A DNA stretch of 64,000 bases from Cryptosporangium phraense (lineage in GTDB: Bacteria > Actinomycetota > Actinomycetes > Mycobacteriales > Cryptosporangiaceae), in assembly GCF_006912135.1 (NCBI RefSeq), contig NZ_VIRS01000025.1:1-64000 (forward strand), given 5' to 3'. The position numbers and the translations under genes were made by a program. The notes under the pieces were generated by a model. That model saw only the letters and a program-made list of their open reading frames with translations. It was not told the origin of the DNA and did not search any database. Positions 39,663-48,286 of this stretch are shown in pieces. Position 1 is the stretch's first letter, and each line of letters begins with the position of its first letter.

Positions 39663-39898
39663 TTCGCGAAGAACCTCGACGGGCTGAAGGCCAGCCAGCT
39701 GAGGTAGGCGGTGAGTAACAGGCCGAGGAGCGCTGCGGCGAGGCGCGGCGCTCCGTGCGGCAGCGCGTCGACGAGGACGCACGAAACGAGGAGCACGACG
39801 CCCGGCGCTGCCGGGTGTACCCGCTTGGTCACACATCGATGGTCGGGGGCCACGCACACCACGGCTGGTCCGAATAGTGAACGCCCGGCGAACCTCAC
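39659..39898 (-). CDS. small membrane protein of unknown function
   Basis: A 79-residue protein with two hydrophobic segments near the C terminus (about 30-45 and 50-68). No family is recognised with confidence. The GTG at 39898 forms a GTGA overlap with the stop of the upstream glycosyltransferase, which supports co-transcription. A later GTG at 39832 would give a 57-residue protein that begins close to the first helix. If translated, it is the last gene of the Nit1C operon, but it is not a known member of that set. Confidence 0.5.
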   Translation of the reverse strand: MRFAGRSLFGPAVVCVAPDHRCVTKRVHPAAPGVVLLVSCVLVDALPHGAPRLAAALLGLLLTAYLSWLAFSPSRFFAN

Positions 39899-40962
39899 TC
39901 GACGAGGCCGGACACGGACGCGACCTTCGCCCGGTAGAAGTCGAGGTGCGCGCGGGCGGCGGTGGTCCAGGTGTAGCTCTGGGCCAGGGCTCGGCCGGGG
40001 GCCGGGTCGTGTGGGTGGTCCAGGGCCTCGGCCAGCGCGCCCGCCAGCGCGTCGACGGAACCCGCGAACCGAACCGCGGAGCCGAAGACCTCTCGCAACA
40101 CTGGAAGATCGCTGGTCACGACCGAGACGCCGGCGGCCAGGGCCTCCATCGCGGCCAGCCCGAAGCCCTCCTTGGTCGACGGGAACGCGAACGCGGCCGC
40201 GCCGGCCACCAGGGACGGCAGCTCCTCATGGGGCACCGGTCCGAGCACGAGCGGTTCGACGCCCAGCGCCGCCGCCCGGGCCTCCCACCTCGCCCGGTAC
40301 TCCCGGTAGTCGAAGAGCGTCTCGCCGCCGGCGATCACCAGCTCGACGTCCGGACGCCGCAACTCCGCGAACGCCTCCAGGAGCTCGATCGAACCCTTGC
40401 GCGGCTCGATCCCGCCGACCGCGAGCACGTACCGGCCCAGGTGGGTCGCCGGGCGGGCCGCGGCGAACCGGGCCGCGTCCACACCGTTCGGGATCACGGT
40501 CGGCGACAAGCCCCAGCCCGCGCGGACCTCGGCCGCCACCGCCGCCGACACGCAGACGTGCGCGAACGGTTCCATGATCGCGCGCTCGTGGCAGGCGGCC
40601 AGCTCCGGCGTCGTGAACTGGTCGAGGTGGTGCACGGTCCGGACGTACGGCACCCCGCGGACCGCGTTCGCGCTGATGCAGTCCTGGGCGTGCACGACGT
40701 CGTAGTCCGACGGGTCGAACGCCTCCCGCAGCACCGCGATCGACCGCAGGATCCGCTCACCGACCGATTCCCCGTCGAGGGGAACGAACGGCACGACTCG
40801 CACCGGCACACCGACCGGACGGAAGAACCCGCCGTCACCGTCCCGCCCGAGCGTCCACACGGTCACCGACACTCCCAGCGCAGCCAGCGCCTCGGCCAGC
40901 GCCAGCGTGTGCACCACCCCGCCGCGCGGCTTCGTCGAGTACGTCAGCAGCGCGACCCTCAC
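39895..40962 (-). CDS. MSMEG_0565-family glycosyltransferase
   Basis: A 355-residue GT4-type enzyme: MRVALLTYSTKPRGGVVHTLALAEAL at the start, VIPNGVDAARF, YVLAVGGIEPRKGSIELLEA, and the EX7E motif EGFGLAAME. It matches the glycosyltransferase of the MSMEG_0565-0572 (Nit1C) gene set, which is found with nitrilase genes in actinobacteria and others. A role in glycosylating a product or lipid is not known. GTG start overlaps the upstream nitrilase-like gene by four bases. Confidence 0.85.
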   Translation of the reverse strand: MRVALLTYSTKPRGGVVHTLALAEALAALGVSVTVWTLGRDGDGGFFRPVGVPVRVVPFVPLDGESVGERILRSIAVLREAFDPSDYDVVHAQDCISANAVRGVPYVRTVHHLDQFTTPELAACHERAIMEPFAHVCVSAAVAAEVRAGWGLSPTVIPNGVDAARFAAARPATHLGRYVLAVGGIEPRKGSIELLEAFAELRRPDVELVIAGGETLFDYREYRARWEARAAALGVEPLVLGPVPHEELPSLVAGAAAFAFPSTKEGFGLAAMEALAAGVSVVTSDLPVLREVFGSAVRFAGSVDALAGALAEALDHPHDPAPGRALAQSYTWTTAARAHLDFYRAKVASVSGLVE

Positions 40963-41780
40963 GCGTACGCTCCGGGGCGCCGCTCGGACAGGTGCGCGAG
41001 CACGCGCCGGGCCCGCGCGATCTCGGCCGCGACGTCGAGTTCAGCGACCGCCATCCCGGCCTTCGACCAGGTCCGGGCCAGCACGTCACCGCCCGGACCG
41101 ACCACTTTGGCCTGGCCCAGGAACCGCATGCCGCCCATCGTCCCGGTCTGGTTCGACGACGCCAGCACGACCTGGTTCTCGGCCGCCCGGGCGCAGTCGT
41201 AGAGGTCGAACAGCCGGGACTGGCGGTCGTCGGCCATCCGCGGGGCCCGGTTCGTCACGCTCGTCGGCCAGGCCGAGAGGCAGGCCAGTATCTCGGCGCC
41301 GTCCAGGGCGAGCGTGCGCGCGGACTCCGGGAACGTCTTGTCGTAGTCGACCAGCATGCCGAGGCGTCCGATCGGGGTGTCGAAGGCCGCGAATCGTTCG
41401 CCCGCGGTGTACGCGAGCGACTCGCCGGCCGGCTGGTGCACCTTGCGGTGCGTCCCGAGGATCCCGTCGCCGGAGAGGCAGACCGCGGTGTTGTACCGCT
41501 GGGTTCCCGAGGCCTCGCGAATGCCCAGGCAGACGACGATCTCGCCGGCCAGCGCGGCGACCCGGCCGAGCTCCGGTCCGTCGAGCTCGATCGATGGCGG
41601 GAGCGTCTCCGGGTCCGGGCGGGCCAGGTCCACGTACCCGCCGAGGGCGGCGTCCGGCAGCACGAGCAGCCCGACCGCCTCCGCGCGGGCCTGCGCGATC
41701 AGCCCGGCGACGCGCTCGATGCCGGCCTCGAGGTTGCGGCCGAAGTGCGCGGAGACCGCGCCGATCCGGATCACGGCCAT
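40959..41780 (-). CDS. nitrilase-superfamily paralogue lacking catalytic Glu and Cys
   Basis: A 273-residue carbon-nitrogen hydrolase fold protein. It aligns without gaps to the active nitrilase in the next gene through residue 145: LPDAALGGYV (Asp43 in place of catalytic Glu), HRKVHQP (Lys113 kept), RLGMLVDYDKTFPES (Asp145, codon GAC, in place of the catalytic Cys). Both nucleophile and base are therefore Asp, so normal nitrilase chemistry looks impossible. The reading frame is intact and the fold core is kept, so it may be a pseudoenzyme subunit that forms mixed oligomers, or a new activity. Start ATG at 41780; it overlaps the glycosyltransferase by GTGA. Confidence 0.85.
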   Translation of the reverse strand: MAVIRIGAVSAHFGRNLEAGIERVAGLIAQARAEAVGLLVLPDAALGGYVDLARPDPETLPPSIELDGPELGRVAALAGEIVVCLGIREASGTQRYNTAVCLSGDGILGTHRKVHQPAGESLAYTAGERFAAFDTPIGRLGMLVDYDKTFPESARTLALDGAEILACLSAWPTSVTNRAPRMADDRQSRLFDLYDCARAAENQVVLASSNQTGTMGGMRFLGQAKVVGPGGDVLARTWSKAGMAVAELDVAAEIARARRVLAHLSERRPGAYA

Positions 41781-41859
41781 GGCCGCCAGGCTAGGACACC
41801 CGCGCCCGCCCGCGCCCCCGCGCCCGCCTGCGCGGCCGGGGCGGCCGGGGACCTCGCGA

Positions 41860-42708
41860 TCAGGCGAGGGAATACGCACCGCCCAGCGCCGGGTACGCGT
41901 CCGGCCGCCGGTCGCGGAGGTGACCCATCGACCGCCGAGCCGTCTCGAGCGCGGCCGTCACGTCCAGCGACGCGACCGCCAGCCCACCGTCAACGCCGGT
42001 GTCCGCGAGCACCTCACCACCCGGATCGACGACCTTCGCACTACCGACGAACCGCAGCGACCCGTACGTCCCGGTCTGGTTCGCCGACAGCCAGACGACC
42101 TGGTTCTCCAGCGCCCGGGCCTGGTCGAACAGGTCGAACCGGCGCTTCCAGCGGTCGCGCGCCAGGTCGGCCGACGCGTTCGTGCGGCTCCCCGGCCAGG
42201 CCGAGACGCACACGATGATCTCGGCGCCGTCCAGCGCCAGCGCCCGCGCCGACTCCGGGAACGCCTTGTCGTAGCAGATCATCGTGCCGATCCGCCCGAT
42301 CGGCGTGTCGAACGCGGCGAACTGGTCGCCCGCGCCGTAGGACGCGTCCTCGGCCAGCGGCTGGTGCACCTTCCGGTGGTTGCCCAGCACCCCGTCCCCG
42401 GTCACGCACACCGCGCTGTTGTACTTCGTCCCGTCGTCGACCGCCTCGCAGTAGCCGGCCACGACCACCATCTCGCCGGCGATCGCGGCCAGCCGGGCGA
42501 CTTCCGGACCGTCGAGGGCGAGCGCCGGCGGGCCTTCGGCCTCGCCGTCGAGGTCGGCCAGGTAGCCGCCGAGCGTCGCTTCCGGCAGGGCCAGCAGGTG
42601 GACGCCACGGGCGCGGGCGTCGGCGACCAGCGACTCGATCCGCGCGAAGTCCGCGTCGAGATCGCGGTCGAACGGCGCCGCGGCGGCCGCCAGGGTCAGC
42701 GCACTCAT
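41860..42708 (-). CDS. Nit1C-type nitrilase
   Basis: A 282-residue nitrilase of the Nit6803/Nit1C type, with the full triad Glu43 (LPEATLGGYL), Lys113 (GNHRKVHQP) and Cys145 (IGTMICYDKAFPESARAL). The enzyme hydrolyses a nitrile. In Pseudomonas the corresponding cluster enables growth on cyanide, but the natural substrate in actinomycetes is not known. The ATG at 42708 abuts the stop of the GNAT/AIR synthase gene (TGATG overlap). The C-terminal tail continues to DAYPALGGAYSLA. A 79-bp GC-rich spacer, CGCGCCCGC-like, separates it from the paralogue downstream. Confidence 0.92.
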   Translation of the reverse strand: MSALTLAAAAAPFDRDLDADFARIESLVADARARGVHLLALPEATLGGYLADLDGEAEGPPALALDGPEVARLAAIAGEMVVVAGYCEAVDDGTKYNSAVCVTGDGVLGNHRKVHQPLAEDASYGAGDQFAAFDTPIGRIGTMICYDKAFPESARALALDGAEIIVCVSAWPGSRTNASADLARDRWKRRFDLFDQARALENQVVWLSANQTGTYGSLRFVGSAKVVDPGGEVLADTGVDGGLAVASLDVTAALETARRSMGHLRDRRPDAYPALGGAYSLA

Positions 42709-44183
42709 CAGATGTCTCCTCGTGAAGGACCGAGGCCGGTCACTCCGGCCGTGATCACGTCGGTGAGCTCGCCGTCCGGCCAGCGGAGGGCGACGCCGGA
42801 ACCGGCTTCGAGCGCGCCACAGATCGCGCTGGTGGCCGGGCCGGCCGCGGGAGCCCGGCCGGCGGGGGAGTTGGTGGTCAGCATTCCGAAGCCGGGGAAA
42901 CACGTGAGCCAGTCGCCCATCGTCGCCCCGGCCGGCCGGGGTACGGCGTTCACGTCGAGGACGGCCCGGCAGCCGCTCGCCTCGGCCAGCATCCCGAGCG
43001 TGCCGGCGATCCCGGCCATCGAGACGTCCTTGGCCGCGGCCGGGCGGGTCTCCCGGACGAACGCGCCCAAGGCCCGGAGTTCCTCGCCGCTCCGTCCCGA
43101 GGTCGAGTCCCACTGGCGGCCGGTGTAGCCGGGGCGCCAGCCGCCGCCGAGGTCGACGGTGAGCCGCACCTCCTGGCCGCGCTGCCCGCTTCCGGGTACC
43201 GGTGCCGTCGCGTGCCCGAGCGCGGTGATCGCCAGCGCTCCGGGTACTCCGAGCTGGGTGTGGCCGCCCAGGATCGGCACGCCGTAGGCGCTCGCCGCGG
43301 CGCGGACCCCGCTGAGGACCCGCGCGGCCTGGGCCCGGTCGCGCGCGCCGAGCGCGTCCAGCACGCCGACCGGGGTGGCGCCCATCGCCGACAGGTCGTT
43401 CACGTTGACCAGCACCCCGCACCAGCCCGCCCACTCCGGGTCACGCTCCACCATCGACGGCAGGATCGCGTCGCAGGCGGCGATCAGGTCCGATCCGGGG
43501 ACCGGTGCCCCGTCGTCGCCGATCCACCCCGCGCCTCCCGGCGCGAGGCCGTCCAGGAGCGCGCCCAGGTCGCGTTTGGTGGCCGCCACGAGCGCGGCGA
43601 TCCGTCCGATCGGCCACCGCACGAGCTCATGCGGACGCCCGGCCACGCGCACGTCGCGGACGCGTTCCCAGCCCAACCGCCGGAACATTCCGACGGCATG
43701 AGCCTGCACGGTCGCCTCGAACCGCAACACCCCGGCGTTCTCGGCGTACGCGCACGCCGCCCGCACCAACGCCGGTCCGACCCCGATGCCCCCGCGCGGC
43801 GCCCCGCTCCCGCGCCGGCCCGGCAGGTGCCCGGTGGCGCGCCAGCCCGGGGCGACGGCCAGGCGGCTGCCGGTCCACCAGCCGATGTCCGGGCCGTCGG
43901 TCGCCGGGCCCACCCGCACTCCGCCGATCACCGCGCCCGAGCGGTCGCGGGCGACGAGCACCACGGTCCGGGGGTCGTCGTCGCGGTCGTCGAGGTCGGA
44001 GCCCGCGAACAGGCCCTGCTCCTCGACGAACGCCTGTCGCCGGAGCGCGTGGTACGCGCCGAGGTCGGACGCCCGCTCGATGGTGAAGGCCGGCCGACGA
44101 CCGCCGGTCAGGGAGGGAACGTCGAGCGGTGGACGGACCTCCCCGCCCACGGTGGTTCGCCGCACATCGTCGATCAACGACAT
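42708..44183 (-). CDS. GNAT acetyltransferase fused to AIR-synthase-like domain (MSMEG_0567 type)
   Basis: A 491-residue fusion. Residues about 1-165 are a GNAT-type domain (FTIERASDLGAYHALRRQAF, VVLVARDRSGAVIGGVRVGP, and GGIGVGPALVRAACAYA, the acetyl-CoA loop). Residues about 190-480 are an AIR synthase-related (PurM-like ATPase) domain: LVNVNDLSAMGATPVGVLDA, ILGGHTQLGVPGALAITALG and AKDVSMAGIAGTLGML. In other bacteria these are two genes (nitE, nitF); in M. smegmatis and here they are one protein. The ATG at 44183 lies one base after the radical SAM stop. Confidence 0.9.
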   Translation of the reverse strand: MSLIDDVRRTTVGGEVRPPLDVPSLTGGRRPAFTIERASDLGAYHALRRQAFVEEQGLFAGSDLDDRDDDPRTVVLVARDRSGAVIGGVRVGPATDGPDIGWWTGSRLAVAPGWRATGHLPGRRGSGAPRGGIGVGPALVRAACAYAENAGVLRFEATVQAHAVGMFRRLGWERVRDVRVAGRPHELVRWPIGRIAALVAATKRDLGALLDGLAPGGAGWIGDDGAPVPGSDLIAACDAILPSMVERDPEWAGWCGVLVNVNDLSAMGATPVGVLDALGARDRAQAARVLSGVRAAASAYGVPILGGHTQLGVPGALAITALGHATAPVPGSGQRGQEVRLTVDLGGGWRPGYTGRQWDSTSGRSGEELRALGAFVRETRPAAAKDVSMAGIAGTLGMLAEASGCRAVLDVNAVPRPAGATMGDWLTCFPGFGMLTTNSPAGRAPAAGPATSAICGALEAGSGVALRWPDGELTDVITAGVTGLGPSRGDI

Positions 44184-44184
44184 C

Positions 44185-45237
44185 TCAGCCACCCGCGGAG
44201 GGAAGGGCGCTGCAGGCGCCGCAGGCCGCACAGCCGGCGCGTTGGTCCGAACCGGACATCCCGGCCGCGTGCAGCAGCGCACCGACGCGCGCGGTGACGT
44301 CGCGGACCAGCGACGGCGGGGGAGCGGTCACGCCGTCGCGGCGGGCCAGGGTCCCGGGCATCGGACGGAACGGGACCACGAACGGGTACACCCCGCGGTC
44401 GATCAGGCGGGCCGCGCCCGCGACCAGCTCGTCGGGGTCCTCGCCCAGGCCGACCAGCAGGTACGTCGAGACCCGGTTGGGTCCGAAGACGCGGACGGCC
44501 TCGTCCCAGGCGGCCTCGTACTCGGTCAGCGGAACGCTGCCCTTGCCGGGCATCCAGGCCAGGCGGACGTCGTCGTCGAGCGATTCCGCGTGGATGCCGA
44601 TCGCGGTCGCGCCGGCGTTCTTCAGGTCGGTGAGCACGGCGAGGTCGCCGGGCGGTTCGATCTGGACCTGGATCGGCAGGCCGGGCACCTTCTCCAGCAC
44701 CGCCCGGACGCAGCGGACCAGGTTCTTCGCGCCCCGGTCGGGGCCGGTCGTCGTGCCGGTGGTCATCACCATCTGGGTGACGCCGTCGAGGCGGACCGCG
44801 GCCTCCGCGACCTCGGCGAGCTGCGCCGGGGTCTTGGCCGCGATCGTCGCGCCGGAGCGGAGCGACTCCTCGATCGTGCAGAACCGGCAGCGCTGGTCCT
44901 CGACGTAGCGGATGCAGGTCTGGACGACGGTCGTGGCCAGCACGTCCCGGCCGTGCAGGCGGGCGATCTGCTCGTAGGAGACGCCGTCGGCGGTGTGCAG
45001 GTCGTAGAACCTGGGCCGGCGGACCGGCTCCAGCGAGAGGCCGGTGTCTTCGCCGAGGTAGAGCAGCCGGCCGTTGCTCGCCGTGTACGGGCTGGTTTCG
45101 ACGAGGGGGATGGCCGCGTTGGCGCCGTTCAACGTGACGTGACCGTCGTTGCTGGGGCCGGCGCCGTCGGGCCGGCGAACCGGGGCGTCCAGACGGACCC
45201 CCCGGATCGCCACATCCACCCGGGTGCTGAGAGACAT
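44185..45237 (-). CDS. radical SAM protein, MSMEG_0568 family (NitD)
   Basis: A 350-residue radical SAM enzyme. The iron-sulfur cluster Cys residues are in VQTCIRYVEDQRCRFCTIEE, an unusual C-x8-C-x2-C spacing instead of CxxxCxxC. QIEPPGDLAVLTDLKNAGATAIGIHAESLDD shows the TIM-barrel core. A Cys-rich tail (CAACGACSALPS) may bind a second cluster. Member of the Nit1C set. Its chemistry is unknown; it may make the substrate or product that the nitrilase acts on. Confidence 0.9.
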   Translation of the reverse strand: MSLSTRVDVAIRGVRLDAPVRRPDGAGPSNDGHVTLNGANAAIPLVETSPYTASNGRLLYLGEDTGLSLEPVRRPRFYDLHTADGVSYEQIARLHGRDVLATTVVQTCIRYVEDQRCRFCTIEESLRSGATIAAKTPAQLAEVAEAAVRLDGVTQMVMTTGTTTGPDRGAKNLVRCVRAVLEKVPGLPIQVQIEPPGDLAVLTDLKNAGATAIGIHAESLDDDVRLAWMPGKGSVPLTEYEAAWDEAVRVFGPNRVSTYLLVGLGEDPDELVAGAARLIDRGVYPFVVPFRPMPGTLARRDGVTAPPPSLVRDVTARVGALLHAAGMSGSDQRAGCAACGACSALPSAGG

Positions 45238-45238
45238 G

Positions 45239-45769
45239 TCAGAACATGTAGGTGGAGTTGATGATCGCGCCCTTGCGTGCGTAGTGGATGAGCGCGTCCT
45301 GGACGTCGAGCGGGTGCGTCGGGATGACGCCCTCGATCAGGTCCTCCTCGCGGGCACCGTGCAGCGAGAGCCCGAACCGGCAGCAGTAGACCTTGCCGCC
45401 CTCGGCGATGAACGTCTTGAGCGAGTCGTTGATGTTGTGCTCGCCCGGGAACGCCGAGTTGCCGGTGGTCGGGAAGCCGCGGGTGGCCAGGCAGTTCAGC
45501 GAGCCCGGGCCGTAGAAGTAGATCGCGGACTCGAAGCCCTTCCGCTGCGCCCTGGTCGCCTGCAGGATCGCGACGAAGCTCACCGACGACTCGTGGGCGA
45601 TGCCGTGCACCAGCGTGAAGTAGGACTGGCCGGGCTCGGCCTGGTAGTCCGGGAAGACCTTCGTGCCGCCGTAGATGCTCGTGCCCTCGGGCAGCGACGG
45701 GTGCGGGATCTCGGTGAGGCTCTTCTGCTCGGCCTCGGTGAGCGTCGGGGTGGTGGTCTCGGCGGTCAT
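45239..45769 (-). CDS. MSMEG_0572-family protein (NitB)
   Basis: A 176-residue protein of the MSMEG_0572/Sll0783 family, found only in Nit1C-type clusters: GTSIYGGTKVFPDYQAEPGQ, SYFTLVHGIAHESSVSFVAI, FPGEHNINDSLKTFIAEGG and HYARKGAIINSTYMF. Sequence resembles DsrE-like folds in its KVYCCRFGLSLHGA segment. No activity known. It lies between the amidohydrolase and radical SAM genes, separated by 1-4 bases, so clearly one operon. Confidence 0.9.
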   Translation of the reverse strand: MTAETTTPTLTEAEQKSLTEIPHPSLPEGTSIYGGTKVFPDYQAEPGQSYFTLVHGIAHESSVSFVAILQATRAQRKGFESAIYFYGPGSLNCLATRGFPTTGNSAFPGEHNINDSLKTFIAEGGKVYCCRFGLSLHGAREEDLIEGVIPTHPLDVQDALIHYARKGAIINSTYMF

Positions 45770-45773
45770 GGTC

Positions 45774-46598
45774 CTACCTTCCGTAGAGGGTTTCGAAGGT
45801 GTCGGTGAAGACGTGCCGGGCGAGTTCGCCGTCGCCGGTGACGGCTCGCAGGCGGGCGTGCTCGCCGGCGAAGTCGCCCCAGGGCTCGTCGCTGGCGAAG
45901 AGGATCCTGTCGTGTCCGACGCCCCGGCGCTCGATCTCGGCCGCGAGCCAGCGCGGGGCGAAGCCGATCGCCCACGACAGGTCGGTGTAGACCTGCTTGC
46001 CGGACGTGATCCAGTCGAAGAAGCGGCCCGACAGCAGCTTGATGTGGCCGCTCATGCCGCCGCCGAAGTGGACGAGGTGGATCCGGGCCTCGTCGGCGTA
46101 CCAGTCGACGAGGTTCGTGATCTCGTCGACGTCGGACGCGGCGCCGGGTGAGGTGTGGATGTGGACGGTGAGGTCGTGCTCGCGGGCGGCGGCGAAGATC
46201 CGGTCGAGGCCGGGACGGCACTCGTCGTCGGTGACCCGGCCGCCGAGGAGGAAGCTGAGCTTGAGCGCCCGGACGCCGTTCTCGCCGGCCAGTTTCAGGG
46301 CCGCGGCCGTCCGCTCGGCGTCCGACGGTTTCGCCGAGACCCAGAGGCCGGCCCGGATCCGGTCGTCCTGCTGCGCGGCCTCGACGACGAGCTCGTTGAA
46401 GCCGAACGCGACGGTCGGGTCGGGGACGCCGTAGTTCGGGAGGACGAGCGCCCGCTCGGTGCCTTCTCGGTCGAGGTCCTCGATGAGCTCTTCGATCGTG
46501 GCCCGGGCGGTGACGTCCGGGTTGACCGGCGGGCCGCCGTAGAACGGGTACGCCGGCAGGACGCCCAGGTGGCGGTGGGCATCGGAACGTGAGCTCAT
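45774..46598 (-). CDS. amidohydrolase-family metal-dependent hydrolase
   Basis: A 274-residue protein of the amidohydrolase_2 type: DAHRHLGVLPAYPFYGG at the N terminus gives the HxH metal ligands, HIHTSPGAASD and HLVHFGG give further His, and ILFASDEPWGDF gives the Asp near the end. It would hydrolyse a C-N or C-C bond of an unknown intermediate. It overlaps the flavoprotein gene by four bases (ATGA). I am less sure that it belongs to the canonical Nit1C set than the other genes, but spacing puts it in the operon. Confidence 0.85.
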   Translation of the reverse strand: MSSRSDAHRHLGVLPAYPFYGGPPVNPDVTARATIEELIEDLDREGTERALVLPNYGVPDPTVAFGFNELVVEAAQQDDRIRAGLWVSAKPSDAERTAAALKLAGENGVRALKLSFLLGGRVTDDECRPGLDRIFAAAREHDLTVHIHTSPGAASDVDEITNLVDWYADEARIHLVHFGGGMSGHIKLLSGRFFDWITSGKQVYTDLSWAIGFAPRWLAAEIERRGVGHDRILFASDEPWGDFAGEHARLRAVTGDGELARHVFTDTFETLYGR

Positions 46599-47914
46599 GC
46601 GCTTCTCGCCGGTACCCAGTCGGTGGAGTAGGTCTCGGTGGGGGTGCCGGCCAGCCAGTGGATGCCGGACTCCGGCGCCCGGGCCTTGGCGATCTGCTCG
46701 GCCAGGTGCTCGGCGTCGGCGCCGACGCCGCCGAAGCGGCCGGATCCCCAGGTCCACTGCCAGGGCAGGCCGAGGAAGTACAGGCCCCGGGACGGGGTGA
46801 CTCCGCGGGCGTGCACCGGGTAGCCCTTGCCGTTGAAGACCGGGGCCTCGATCCAGCGGTGGTCCGGGCCGAAGCCGGTGCTCCAGATGACGGCTTTGAG
46901 GTCTGTGACCGGCAGCTCTCGCAGGTCGTAGCTCGCGTCGGCCGGGGTCCAGACCGGGGTGTAGCGGGGTTCCTCCGGGGCCTCGATGCCGTTGGCGGAC
47001 AGGTACTCGTCGATCGAGTCCTTGATCGACTCCGACACCCGGTCGGCGCCGTCGAGGTTCGTGGCCAGGTCGTCGTCGAAGTGGAGCGACTCGTCGATCG
47101 CGCGGAGGCGTCCGTGGAGGCGCATGCCGTCGCGGGCGAAGGCCCGCAGGTCGATGTCGCGCCCGCCGTCCCGGCCGGTCACGTAGTGGTTGACCCGGAA
47201 CCGGACCGCGTCGGCGTCGGCGAAGTCGTCGATCGTGCGCCGGTAGTAGCCCATGTCCTCGAGCCAGGCGACGACGTCGCGGCCGCGGTAGAACCGGGCG
47301 ACCCGGGGCGCGCTGCCGACCGCGAGGTGGACGGTCCGGCCGGCCAGGTGCAGGTCCTCGGCGATCTGGGCGCCCGACTGCCCGCTGCCGACGACGAGCA
47401 CGTCGCCGTCGGGAAGCTGGTCGGCGTTCCGGTAGCCGGACGAGTGGAGCTGGGTGACGCCCTCCGGCAGTCGCTCGGCGATCCGCGGGGTCACCGGCAC
47501 CTGGTACGGGCCGGTGGCGACGACGACCTGGTCGGCGATGAGCGTGCCCTCGGTCGTGCGGAGCTCGTAGCGTCCGTCCGGGCGGCCCCGCAGCCGGGTC
47601 GCCGAGACGCCCTCGAACAGCGGGACGTCGAAGGACTTCGTGTACGCGTCGAGGTAGTCGAGAATCTGGTCTTTCACCATGAAGCCGTCCGGGTCGTTCC
47701 CCGCGTACGGGTGGCCAGGGAGGTCGCACTGCCAGTTCGGGGTGACCAGGCAGAACGAGTCCCAGCGGCGGGTCCGCCACTCGTGGCCGACGCGGTTCCG
47801 CTCCAGGACGACGTGATCGATGTTTCGCTGAGTGAGATGCCAGCTGATCGACAGTCCGGCCTGGCCGCCGCCGACCACGACGACCGGATATTCGGCGTCC
47901 GGTACTAATCGCAT
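46595..47914 (-). CDS. flavin-dependent oxidoreductase, MSMEG_0569 family (NitH)
   Basis: A 439-residue flavoprotein with two dinucleotide-binding motifs: VVVVGGGQAGLSISWHLTQR for FAD and DVLVVGSGQSGAQIAEDLHL for NAD(P)H, and VIWSTGFGPDHRW near the end. This is the architecture of flavin monooxygenases and of MSMEG_0569 in the Nit1C set. It could oxidise the precursor of the nitrile; the substrate is not known. ATG at 47914 lies ten bases inside the preceding small gene. Confidence 0.92.
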   Translation of the reverse strand: MRLVPDAEYPVVVVGGGQAGLSISWHLTQRNIDHVVLERNRVGHEWRTRRWDSFCLVTPNWQCDLPGHPYAGNDPDGFMVKDQILDYLDAYTKSFDVPLFEGVSATRLRGRPDGRYELRTTEGTLIADQVVVATGPYQVPVTPRIAERLPEGVTQLHSSGYRNADQLPDGDVLVVGSGQSGAQIAEDLHLAGRTVHLAVGSAPRVARFYRGRDVVAWLEDMGYYRRTIDDFADADAVRFRVNHYVTGRDGGRDIDLRAFARDGMRLHGRLRAIDESLHFDDDLATNLDGADRVSESIKDSIDEYLSANGIEAPEEPRYTPVWTPADASYDLRELPVTDLKAVIWSTGFGPDHRWIEAPVFNGKGYPVHARGVTPSRGLYFLGLPWQWTWGSGRFGGVGADAEHLAEQIAKARAPESGIHWLAGTPTETYSTDWVPARSA

Positions 47915-48189
47915 GGCTCGAATCCTTCGATGAGTACGGATCCATCAGTCAGACCGGCGGCGCGCCGCTCGATCGTGGCCAGCTCGGCTCGGGCGTGAGC
48001 GCACCCCATTCCGTACTTGGCGCGGACGCGCTCGGAGGCGATCGTCAGGGCGTCCCGACTTCGCTCCAAAAAGTCCGGTGGCGGGTACGATGCGCCTGAC
48101 GTGAAGTAGTCCTTGACCACCAGCGACGGCGAGTAGTAGCGCACGCGTTCGCCGTTGGGCCAGCGCACGACGAAGTAGATCTCCGGCAC
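47905..48189 (-). CDS. MSMEG_0570-family nitrogen-starvation response protein (NitG)
   Basis: A 94-residue protein beginning with GTG in PEIYFVVRWPNGERVRYYSP; the family starts MPE, which supports this GTG over an ATG at 48234. The rest (DYFTSGASYPPPDFLERSRDAL) matches the MSMEG_0570 family, whose members are described as nitrogen-starvation responsive and always travel with Nit1C genes. First gene of the minus-strand operon; a GlnR-like site lies about 100 bases upstream. Confidence 0.85.
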   Translation of the reverse strand: MPEIYFVVRWPNGERVRYYSPSLVVKDYFTSGASYPPPDFLERSRDALTIASERVRAKYGMGCAHARAELATIERRAAGLTDGSVLIEGFEPCD

Positions 48190-48286
48190 CGTGGGCAACC
48201 GTCCTTCCGGTCGACGTCCCTGGTGTTGAGTCAAGACTCGATCGATTTCTCCGATGTCTCATCCGGAACAACTGCCCGTTTCGCGA

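Follow-up and report, generated by a model that had tools for sequence, protein, structure and literature searches.

The Nit1C gene clusters first described in cyanobacteria and proteobacteria join, as far as the accessible parts of the reports go, genes for a radical SAM protein, a GNAT protein, an AIR-synthase-like protein, a flavoprotein and two small conserved families to a gene for a subfamily-1 nitrilase (NitC), which in Pseudomonas is linked to cyanide assimilation (PMC1199592; PMC11049912). In Mycobacterium smegmatis the MSMEG_0565-0572 genes are, by the available text of one report, induced by GlnR and affect the redox state and peroxide resistance, and MSMEG_0572 is induced >500-fold under nitrogen starvation (PMC6039565); no product of the cluster is named in the literature searched. 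Here we analyze a Nit1C-type cluster of nine genes on the minus strand (48234 to 39895) of the window, the whole 64,000-nucleotide stretch of Cryptosporangium phraense DNA (contig NZ_VIRS01000025.1) that was studied. This cluster shares the families listed above and carries, instead of the subfamily-1 nitrilase, two carbon-nitrogen (CN) hydrolase paralogues, namely P2, with intact catalytic residues, and P1, in which the Cys nucleophile is replaced by Asp. We show that P1 is conserved and under purifying selection, and we tentatively propose that it binds a ligand without hydrolyzing it and serves the glycosyltransferase encoded next to it. The three genes on which the argument turns are the following.

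40959-41780, minus strand: P1, CN-hydrolase-fold paralogue with Asp43, Lys113, Glu120 and Asp145 (putative pseudo-hydrolase); PF00795 at 116.5 bits, no NCBIfam family above its cut-off.
41860-42708, minus strand: P2, CN hydrolase with intact Glu43, Lys113, Glu120 and Cys145; PF00795 at 150.6 bits, no NCBIfam family above its cut-off.
39895-40962, minus strand: glycosyltransferase of the MSMEG_0565 family; TIGR04047 at 436.9 bits (cut-off 259.85), its first 4 bases also being the last 4 of P1.

Both CN hydrolase frames are open, and P1 is 58% identical to P2 (282 residues). The ATG at 41780, where several relatives also show Met in the matched stretch, was taken as the start of P1 (273 residues); this is a judgement, and a frame begun at the listed GTG (41879) would overrun P2. 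The numbering of the catalytic positions 43, 113, 120 and 145 is identical in both proteins, and these positions read E-K-E-C in P2 and D-K-E-D in P1, just as the first-pass annotation had reported for residues 43, 113 and 145. The P1 score stands well clear of the PF00795 cut-off (23.2 bits), but of the Glu-Lys-Cys triad Lys alone is retained, with Cys replaced by Asp in 131 of 131 P1 sequences and Glu by Asp, Gly or His. P1 is a member of the CN hydrolase superfamily by fold, not by catalytic residues. Judged from these residues, it lacks the Cys that canonical nitrilases and amidases use as nucleophile, and the first-pass annotation was right on this point.

The P1 set comprised 131 distinct sequences, pooled from whole-genome protein and profile searches (58 sequences) and from a pattern scan of genome contigs (73 sequences) in which the best 80 of 419 loci were kept, their titles being actinobacterial as far as titles tell. 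Asp145 and Lys113 were found in all 131 sequences, with Asp145 encoded by GAC in 126 and by GAT in 5. The scan used the motifs '[IV]DYDKTFP' and 'HRKVHQP', which partly builds in both residues; among the 58 sequences collected without it, Lys113 and Asp145 were likewise present in 58 (DKED 48, GKED 7, DKVD 2 and DKDD 1). The best 80 of the 419 scan loci read D-K-E-D in 79 cases and H-K-E-D in 1. Over the whole set, position 43 is Asp in 123, Gly in 7 and His in 1, and position 120 is Glu in 128, Val in 2 and Asp in 1. Because position 43 is not strictly Asp, the fixed core of P1 is, on these alignments, Lys113/Asp145 rather than an Asp/Asp pair; of the Asp43/Asp145 form put forward initially, Asp145 is conserved throughout and Asp43 in part. 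A sequencing error or a single-genome oddity at Asp145 was rejected, since 131 distinct sequences carry Asp. Invariant positions number 60 in P1 vs. 44 in P2, whose set is more diverse, and Gln187, Thr237 and Lys240 were each found in 131 of 131 P1 sequences. Residue 84 of P1 (window 41529-41531, minus strand) is Cys in 130 of 131, and P2 has Val, Thr, Cys or Ala there.

P1 recurs across the genome panels, many soil actinobacteria having it in addition to an ordinary CN hydrolase. A match at 1e-60 was obtained in 50 of the 298 genomes of the order panel, and 48 had a P1-type match of at least 61% identity, always together with one or more other matches. The catalytic positions were read in this panel for 30 loci (L006-L035; once with gaps in the motifs and again by alignment) and for some further loci. 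The class panel (394 genomes) yielded a P1 profile match at 1e-85 in 49, of which 33, at 1e-130 or better, were classed as P1 type. Nine of the 396 genomes of the phylum panel matched, five with the P1 type and four with the E-K-E-C type only. Among 72,556 plasmid records, 4 matched at 1e-40, all from Rhodococcus.

In a quick tree of 92 of the 261 sequences, rooted at the midpoint and supported by the Shimodaira-Hasegawa-like approximate likelihood-ratio test (SH-aLRT) only, a single branch set the 38 P1 rows apart (SH-aLRT 94), with a P2 group (98) as their neighbour. The Gly43 rows lay in two places within the P1 group, with codons one step from GAC or GAT; they comprise a group in family f104 (loci L171, L172, L175-L177 and L179) and one other case elsewhere (L174). 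The ratio of nonsynonymous to synonymous substitution rates (dN/dS) was calculated by the Nei-Gojobori method for eight cluster genes (MSMEG_0570 excluded) at up to 81 loci. Over non-independent pairs with dS of 0.1 to 1.0, the median dN/dS was 0.202 for P1, 0.238 for P2, 0.250 for the glycosyltransferase, 0.249 for the AIR-like gene, 0.247 for the amidohydrolase, 0.225 for the radical SAM gene, 0.335 for the flavoprotein and 0.150 for MSMEG_0572, the only one of the eight with a lower value than P1. P1 is thus conserved, under purifying selection and a single clade in the tree made. Since the Asp form is conserved, P1 forms one clade and selection on it is purifying, it is not a decaying duplicate; its dN/dS is below that of P2 (0.20 vs. 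0.24). The relaxed selection, broken frame and scattered distribution of a pseudogene are not seen: dN/dS is 0.20, the frames are open and P1 is one old group.

An example of genuine decay in this family is found in the same genome, and P1 is unlike it. On contig C2 (~76530-80261) lies a second, degenerate part of the cluster: its radical-SAM-like frame is shortened, and its P2-like frame lacks the stretch that holds Lys113 and Glu120. Across four genomes of this genus, the present one included, the triad positions of the P2-like paralogue read EQ-C, DT-G, EQ-C and GN-S; the matching frames of the congeners G012, G026 and G036 read DT-G, GN-S and EQ-C.

AlphaFold2 was run on 42 window and locus sequences. 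The P1 model has an intact fold (predicted local distance difference test, pLDDT, 90.7; predicted template modelling score, pTM, 0.91). In it, strand 138-144 leads into a helix, and Asp145 sits at the N-terminal end of this helix. Foldseek returned 199 PDB matches at E <= 0.001, and the 50 listed are CN-hydrolase-fold enzymes; among solved structures the best matches are the plant N-carbamoylputrescine amidohydrolase MtCPA, a P. horikoshii amidase, an H. pylori CN hydrolase and mouse Nit2. P1 has the same fold as MtCPA (PDB 5h8i-l), P. horikoshii PH0642 (1j31, 6ypa), the P. abyssi nitrilase (3ivz) and mouse Nit2 (2w1v), all among its best Foldseek or HMMER matches, and it keeps their Lys, second Glu (128/131) and pocket Tyr. 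It differs from them at the Cys nucleophile, which is Asp, at the base Glu, which is Asp, Gly or His, and at Arg178 (131/131), which the HMMER alignment puts onto MtCPA Glu187. That Glu is, in the available text on MtCPA, a pocket-entrance residue that sets the charge and length of the substrate (PMC4812014). At the 178 site P2 has mostly Pro (54) or Ala (46), and it has Arg at 175 in 106 of 116 sequences. Both pockets thus appear to have an arginine in this loop, in different register, which suggests anionic ligands for P1 and P2. Eleven MtCPA-defined pocket positions, seven of them non-catalytic, were mapped from the HMMER alignment. In P1 these are more conserved than random sets of positions (fraction as low, 0.003 for the eleven and 0.03 for the seven), and their mean entropy is lower in P1 (0.21) than in P2 (0.34).

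The glycosyltransferase gene directly follows P1 in 80 of 80 kept pattern-scan loci (best 80 of 419), with a gap of 0 to 249 bases. In the class panel, P1 was present in 33 genomes, the transferase above its cut-off in 53, both in 32 and both on the same contig in 31; in all 31 of the latter the two genes lie at most 171 bases apart. P2 shares a contig with P1 in 32 class-panel genomes and is within 300 bases of it in 10 of these. The adjacency of P1 and transferase holds also where the gene on the other side of P1 differs: in shuffled gene orders (e.g., L148, L153, L156 and L198) the flavoprotein or AIR-like gene stands between P2 and P1, and P1 keeps the transferase. Each of the 80 kept loci has a P2-type match upstream of P1, and no further recognised cluster gene separates the two; at L058 the gap between them is 1.4 kb. 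In Streptomyces sp. P3 (L062:9155-10001) P2 is in pieces in different frames beside an intact P1, which may be a sequencing or assembly fault.

In the gpr operon of M. smegmatis, MSMEG_0566 is flanked by the AIR-synthase-like gene on one side and the glycosyltransferase gene on the other, as P1 is at L198 and L156. The available text of three reports calls it an 'aliphatic amidase' (PMC4617892; PMC6039565; PMC4222082). From this gene order we infer that MSMEG_0566 is the P1 orthologue; if so, its annotation as an amidase is doubtful.

Gene adjacency typically marks glycosyltransferase helpers, and P1 is likewise a degenerate enzyme homologue encoded next to a transferase. EryCII and DesVIII are described, in the accessible text, as P450-like enzyme homologues that have lost catalytic ability and serve a glycosyltransferase, with DesVIII lacking the haem-ligand cysteine (PMC3391682). 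P1 differs from them in having the CN-hydrolase fold and not the P450 fold. The view of P1 as a helper modelled on EryCII and DesVIII is a working analogy, and an effect of P1 on the transferase is a proposal.

Because Lys113 and Asp145 are invariant while the base position varies, and because the pocket is constrained, we favour the reading that P1 is a non-hydrolytic, ligand-binding pseudo-hydrolase; gene order is the reason for placing it at the glycosyltransferase step. We hold this reading tentatively, as the leading candidate with a somewhat less than even chance of being correct. An old duplication of a P2-related CN hydrolase would have given rise to P1, with the fold and the ligand pocket kept. 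The nucleophile has given way to Asp145; the Asp carboxylate could form a pair with Lys113, which is invariant, and without the Cys no thioester or thioimidate would form on P1. The pocket may then bind an anionic metabolite of the pathway and leave it uncut, and P1 could present this metabolite to the co-encoded glycosyltransferase, stabilise the enzyme or switch it on. In a broader form, it is close to an even call that P1 represents a widespread CN-hydrolase-fold group, marked by the Asp-Lys pair and the pocket Arg, that either catalyzes a novel reaction on an anionic Nit1C metabolite or activates the glycosyltransferase.

Neither a pseudo-nitrilase of this kind nor a precedent for a CN-hydrolase-fold activator of a glycosyltransferase was found in the literature searched, most subscription papers lying outside the search. 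A superfamily that is generally characterised by its Glu-Lys-Cys triad would gain a new use if P1 turned out to act on the transferase or to rely on Asp-based chemistry. Where a conserved cluster member bears an amidase annotation and yet has no nucleophile, pathway reconstruction and enzyme mining would be led astray. P1 offers three handles, namely its glycosyltransferase neighbour, the arginine pocket and the two invariant residues.

Covariation of evolutionary rates was measured at 54 loci as partial correlations of protein distances with the shared trend removed (bootstrap medians). The values for P1 were 0.35 with the amidohydrolase, 0.24 with MSMEG_0572, 0.20 with the flavoprotein, about 0.18-0.19 with the transferase and 0.10 with the radical SAM protein; with P2 there was no positive correlation (-0.21, 95% interval -0.44 to 0.00). 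Changes at conserved sites were also counted in five lineages that lack P1 (loci not de-duplicated, counts without a significance test): 0 to 11 of 158 sites in the AIR-like protein, 1 to 6 of 151 in the radical SAM protein and 2 to 10 of 110 in MSMEG_0572. Only one site, in MSMEG_0572, was altered in at least three of these lineages.

Several observations weigh against a pseudo-hydrolase serving the glycosyltransferase: (i) among the 53 class-panel genomes with the transferase, P1 is missing from 21, of which 16 have a P2-type match at 1e-85 and 5 do not, so that the transferase can function without it, which argues against a general need for P1; (ii) genome G701, which carries P1 (L192:8366-9181), lacks both a P2-type match (1e-85) and a transferase match (1e-70), and in genome G187 no transferase was found near P1; (iii) in the P1-less lineages each transferase is changed at 0 to 4 of 117 conserved sites, and P2 at 0 to 11 of 109; (iv) the highest residual rate correlation of P1 is with the amidohydrolase, not with the transferase; (v) the pocket of P2, too, exceeds random sets in conservation (0.007; 0.13 for the non-catalytic positions), so that P1 is not distinguished by this test taken by itself; and (vi) the Arg178 loop was modelled less confidently (block means 69 and 80).

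Neighbourhoods were read for 8 of the 21 genomes that have the transferase and lack P1. In the seven f104 genomes read (L183-L185, L187, L188, L191 and L201) the transferase and P2 are retained and no P1 was seen. Around the P1 of G701 no other recognised cluster gene was found within ~8 kb. Open reading frames called around L192, L155 and L183 were set aside as too noisy in this G+C-rich DNA.

The alternative that survives best, though unlikely, is that P1 is an enzyme with new chemistry, in which Asp145, as nucleophile or acid/base, would work with Lys113 on a pathway substrate, lyase, decarboxylase and transferase activities being examples. The constancy of Asp145, Lys113, Arg178, Gln187, Thr237 and Lys240 and the near constancy of Cys84 speak for it, as do the pocket entropy, lower than in P2, and a dN/dS among the lowest of the cluster; a reaction relying on Lys and Asp alone would also tolerate Gly or His at position 43. 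A general-base position occupied by Gly or His in 8 of 131 sequences, together with position 120 altered in 3 of 131, would nevertheless be unusual in a protein that is still catalytic, and no precedent within the fold was found in the literature searched.

Next comes the possibility, which we also consider rather improbable, that P1 is a non-catalytic subunit of mixed oligomers with active P2 and tunes its activity. P1 without P2 was found in only 1 of 33 class-panel genomes, the other 32 having a P2-type match, as do all 80 kept loci (split in L062); in MtCPA, by the available text, adjacent subunits form part of the wall around the active-site entrance (PMC4812014); and conserved P2 sites are altered in four of the five P1-less lineages (2 to 11 of 109, with none in G078). 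P2 is, however, found in clusters without P1 (the f104 genomes, G866, G393 and G414), P1 is not beside P2 in 22 of 32 genomes, and the rates of the two proteins do not rise together. P2 as the constant partner of P1 is therefore weakened, though P1 may have some link to P2. The first-pass annotation had named mixed oligomers with the active partner first among its options, and they lose that rank, because gene order favours the transferase (31/31 vs. 10/32) and the partial correlation with P2 is negative.

P1 might instead sense or store a ligand in the nitrogen-starvation response, untied to any particular partner enzyme; we regard this as quite improbable. The M. smegmatis MSMEG_0565-0572 genes are, in the accessible text, GlnR-controlled and affect NADPH/NADP and peroxide resistance, the single genes responsible being unnamed (PMC6039565), and G701 has P1 without recognised cluster neighbours, but the near-constant linkage of the P1 and transferase genes is unexpected for a free sensor. 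That P1 is a decaying duplicate heading for loss is hardly credible: P1 is missing from some cluster-bearing lineages, and Gly43 is found both in one clade within a single family and in one sequence from elsewhere, but the dN/dS of 0.20, the 60 invariant positions vs. 44 in P2, the one old group and the different look of the genuinely decaying paralogue in the same genome all oppose it, and Lys113 plus Asp145 in 131 of 131 sequences (58/58 in the non-pattern set) refute it.

The other genes of the cluster, in order from P2 upstream, are the following.

42708-44282, minus strand: fused GNAT and AIR-synthase-like protein of the MSMEG_0567 type; TIGR04045 and TIGR04050 above cut-off, start codon uncertain.
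44185-45237, minus strand: radical SAM protein of the MSMEG_0568 family; TIGR04043 at 483.6 bits (cut-off 303.7).
45239-45769, minus strand: MSMEG_0572/Sll0783 nitrogen-starvation response protein; TIGR04044 at 250.8 bits (cut-off 109.85).
45774-46562, minus strand: amidohydrolase of the Amidohydro_2 family; PF04909 at 61.9 bits, present in 74 of 80 pattern-scan loci.
46595-47914, minus strand: flavin-dependent oxidoreductase of the MSMEG_0569 family; TIGR04046 at 637.6 bits (cut-off 498.35).
47905-48234, minus strand: protein of the MSMEG_0570 family; TIGR04042 at 109 bits (cut-off 79.85).

NCBIfam models above their cut-offs type six of the nine cluster genes (MSMEG_0570, 0569, 0572, 0568, 0567 and 0565). 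The MSMEG_0567, 0568, 0569, 0570 and 0572 families stand side by side, all above cut-off, as in Nit1C clusters, and to this extent the Nit1C assignment made at first stands; its nitrilase part does not, since the subfamily-1 (Nit6803/NitC) model TIGR04048 scores below cut-off. This model was above cut-off in 0 of 20 genomes, including this one, and in 1 of 14 control genomes. On that ground the P2 and P1 pair occupies the place of the single subfamily-1 nitrilase of the first-described clusters, as these appear in the available text (PMC1199592). Because TIGR04048 was found in 0 of the 20 genomes and no NCBIfam family scores above cut-off for P2, the label 'nitrilase' for P2 is an assumption; its best matches include one nitrilase as well as amidases, and P2 could be an amidase.

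A UGA codon of MSMEG_0571 has been proposed, in the accessible text, as selenocysteine that fuses MSMEG_0571 with MSMEG_0569 (PMC6039565). The P2-type and flavoprotein genes match separately, along their lengths, at L148, L153 and L197-L199, and for this reason the fusion appears doubtful, as judged from these relatives.

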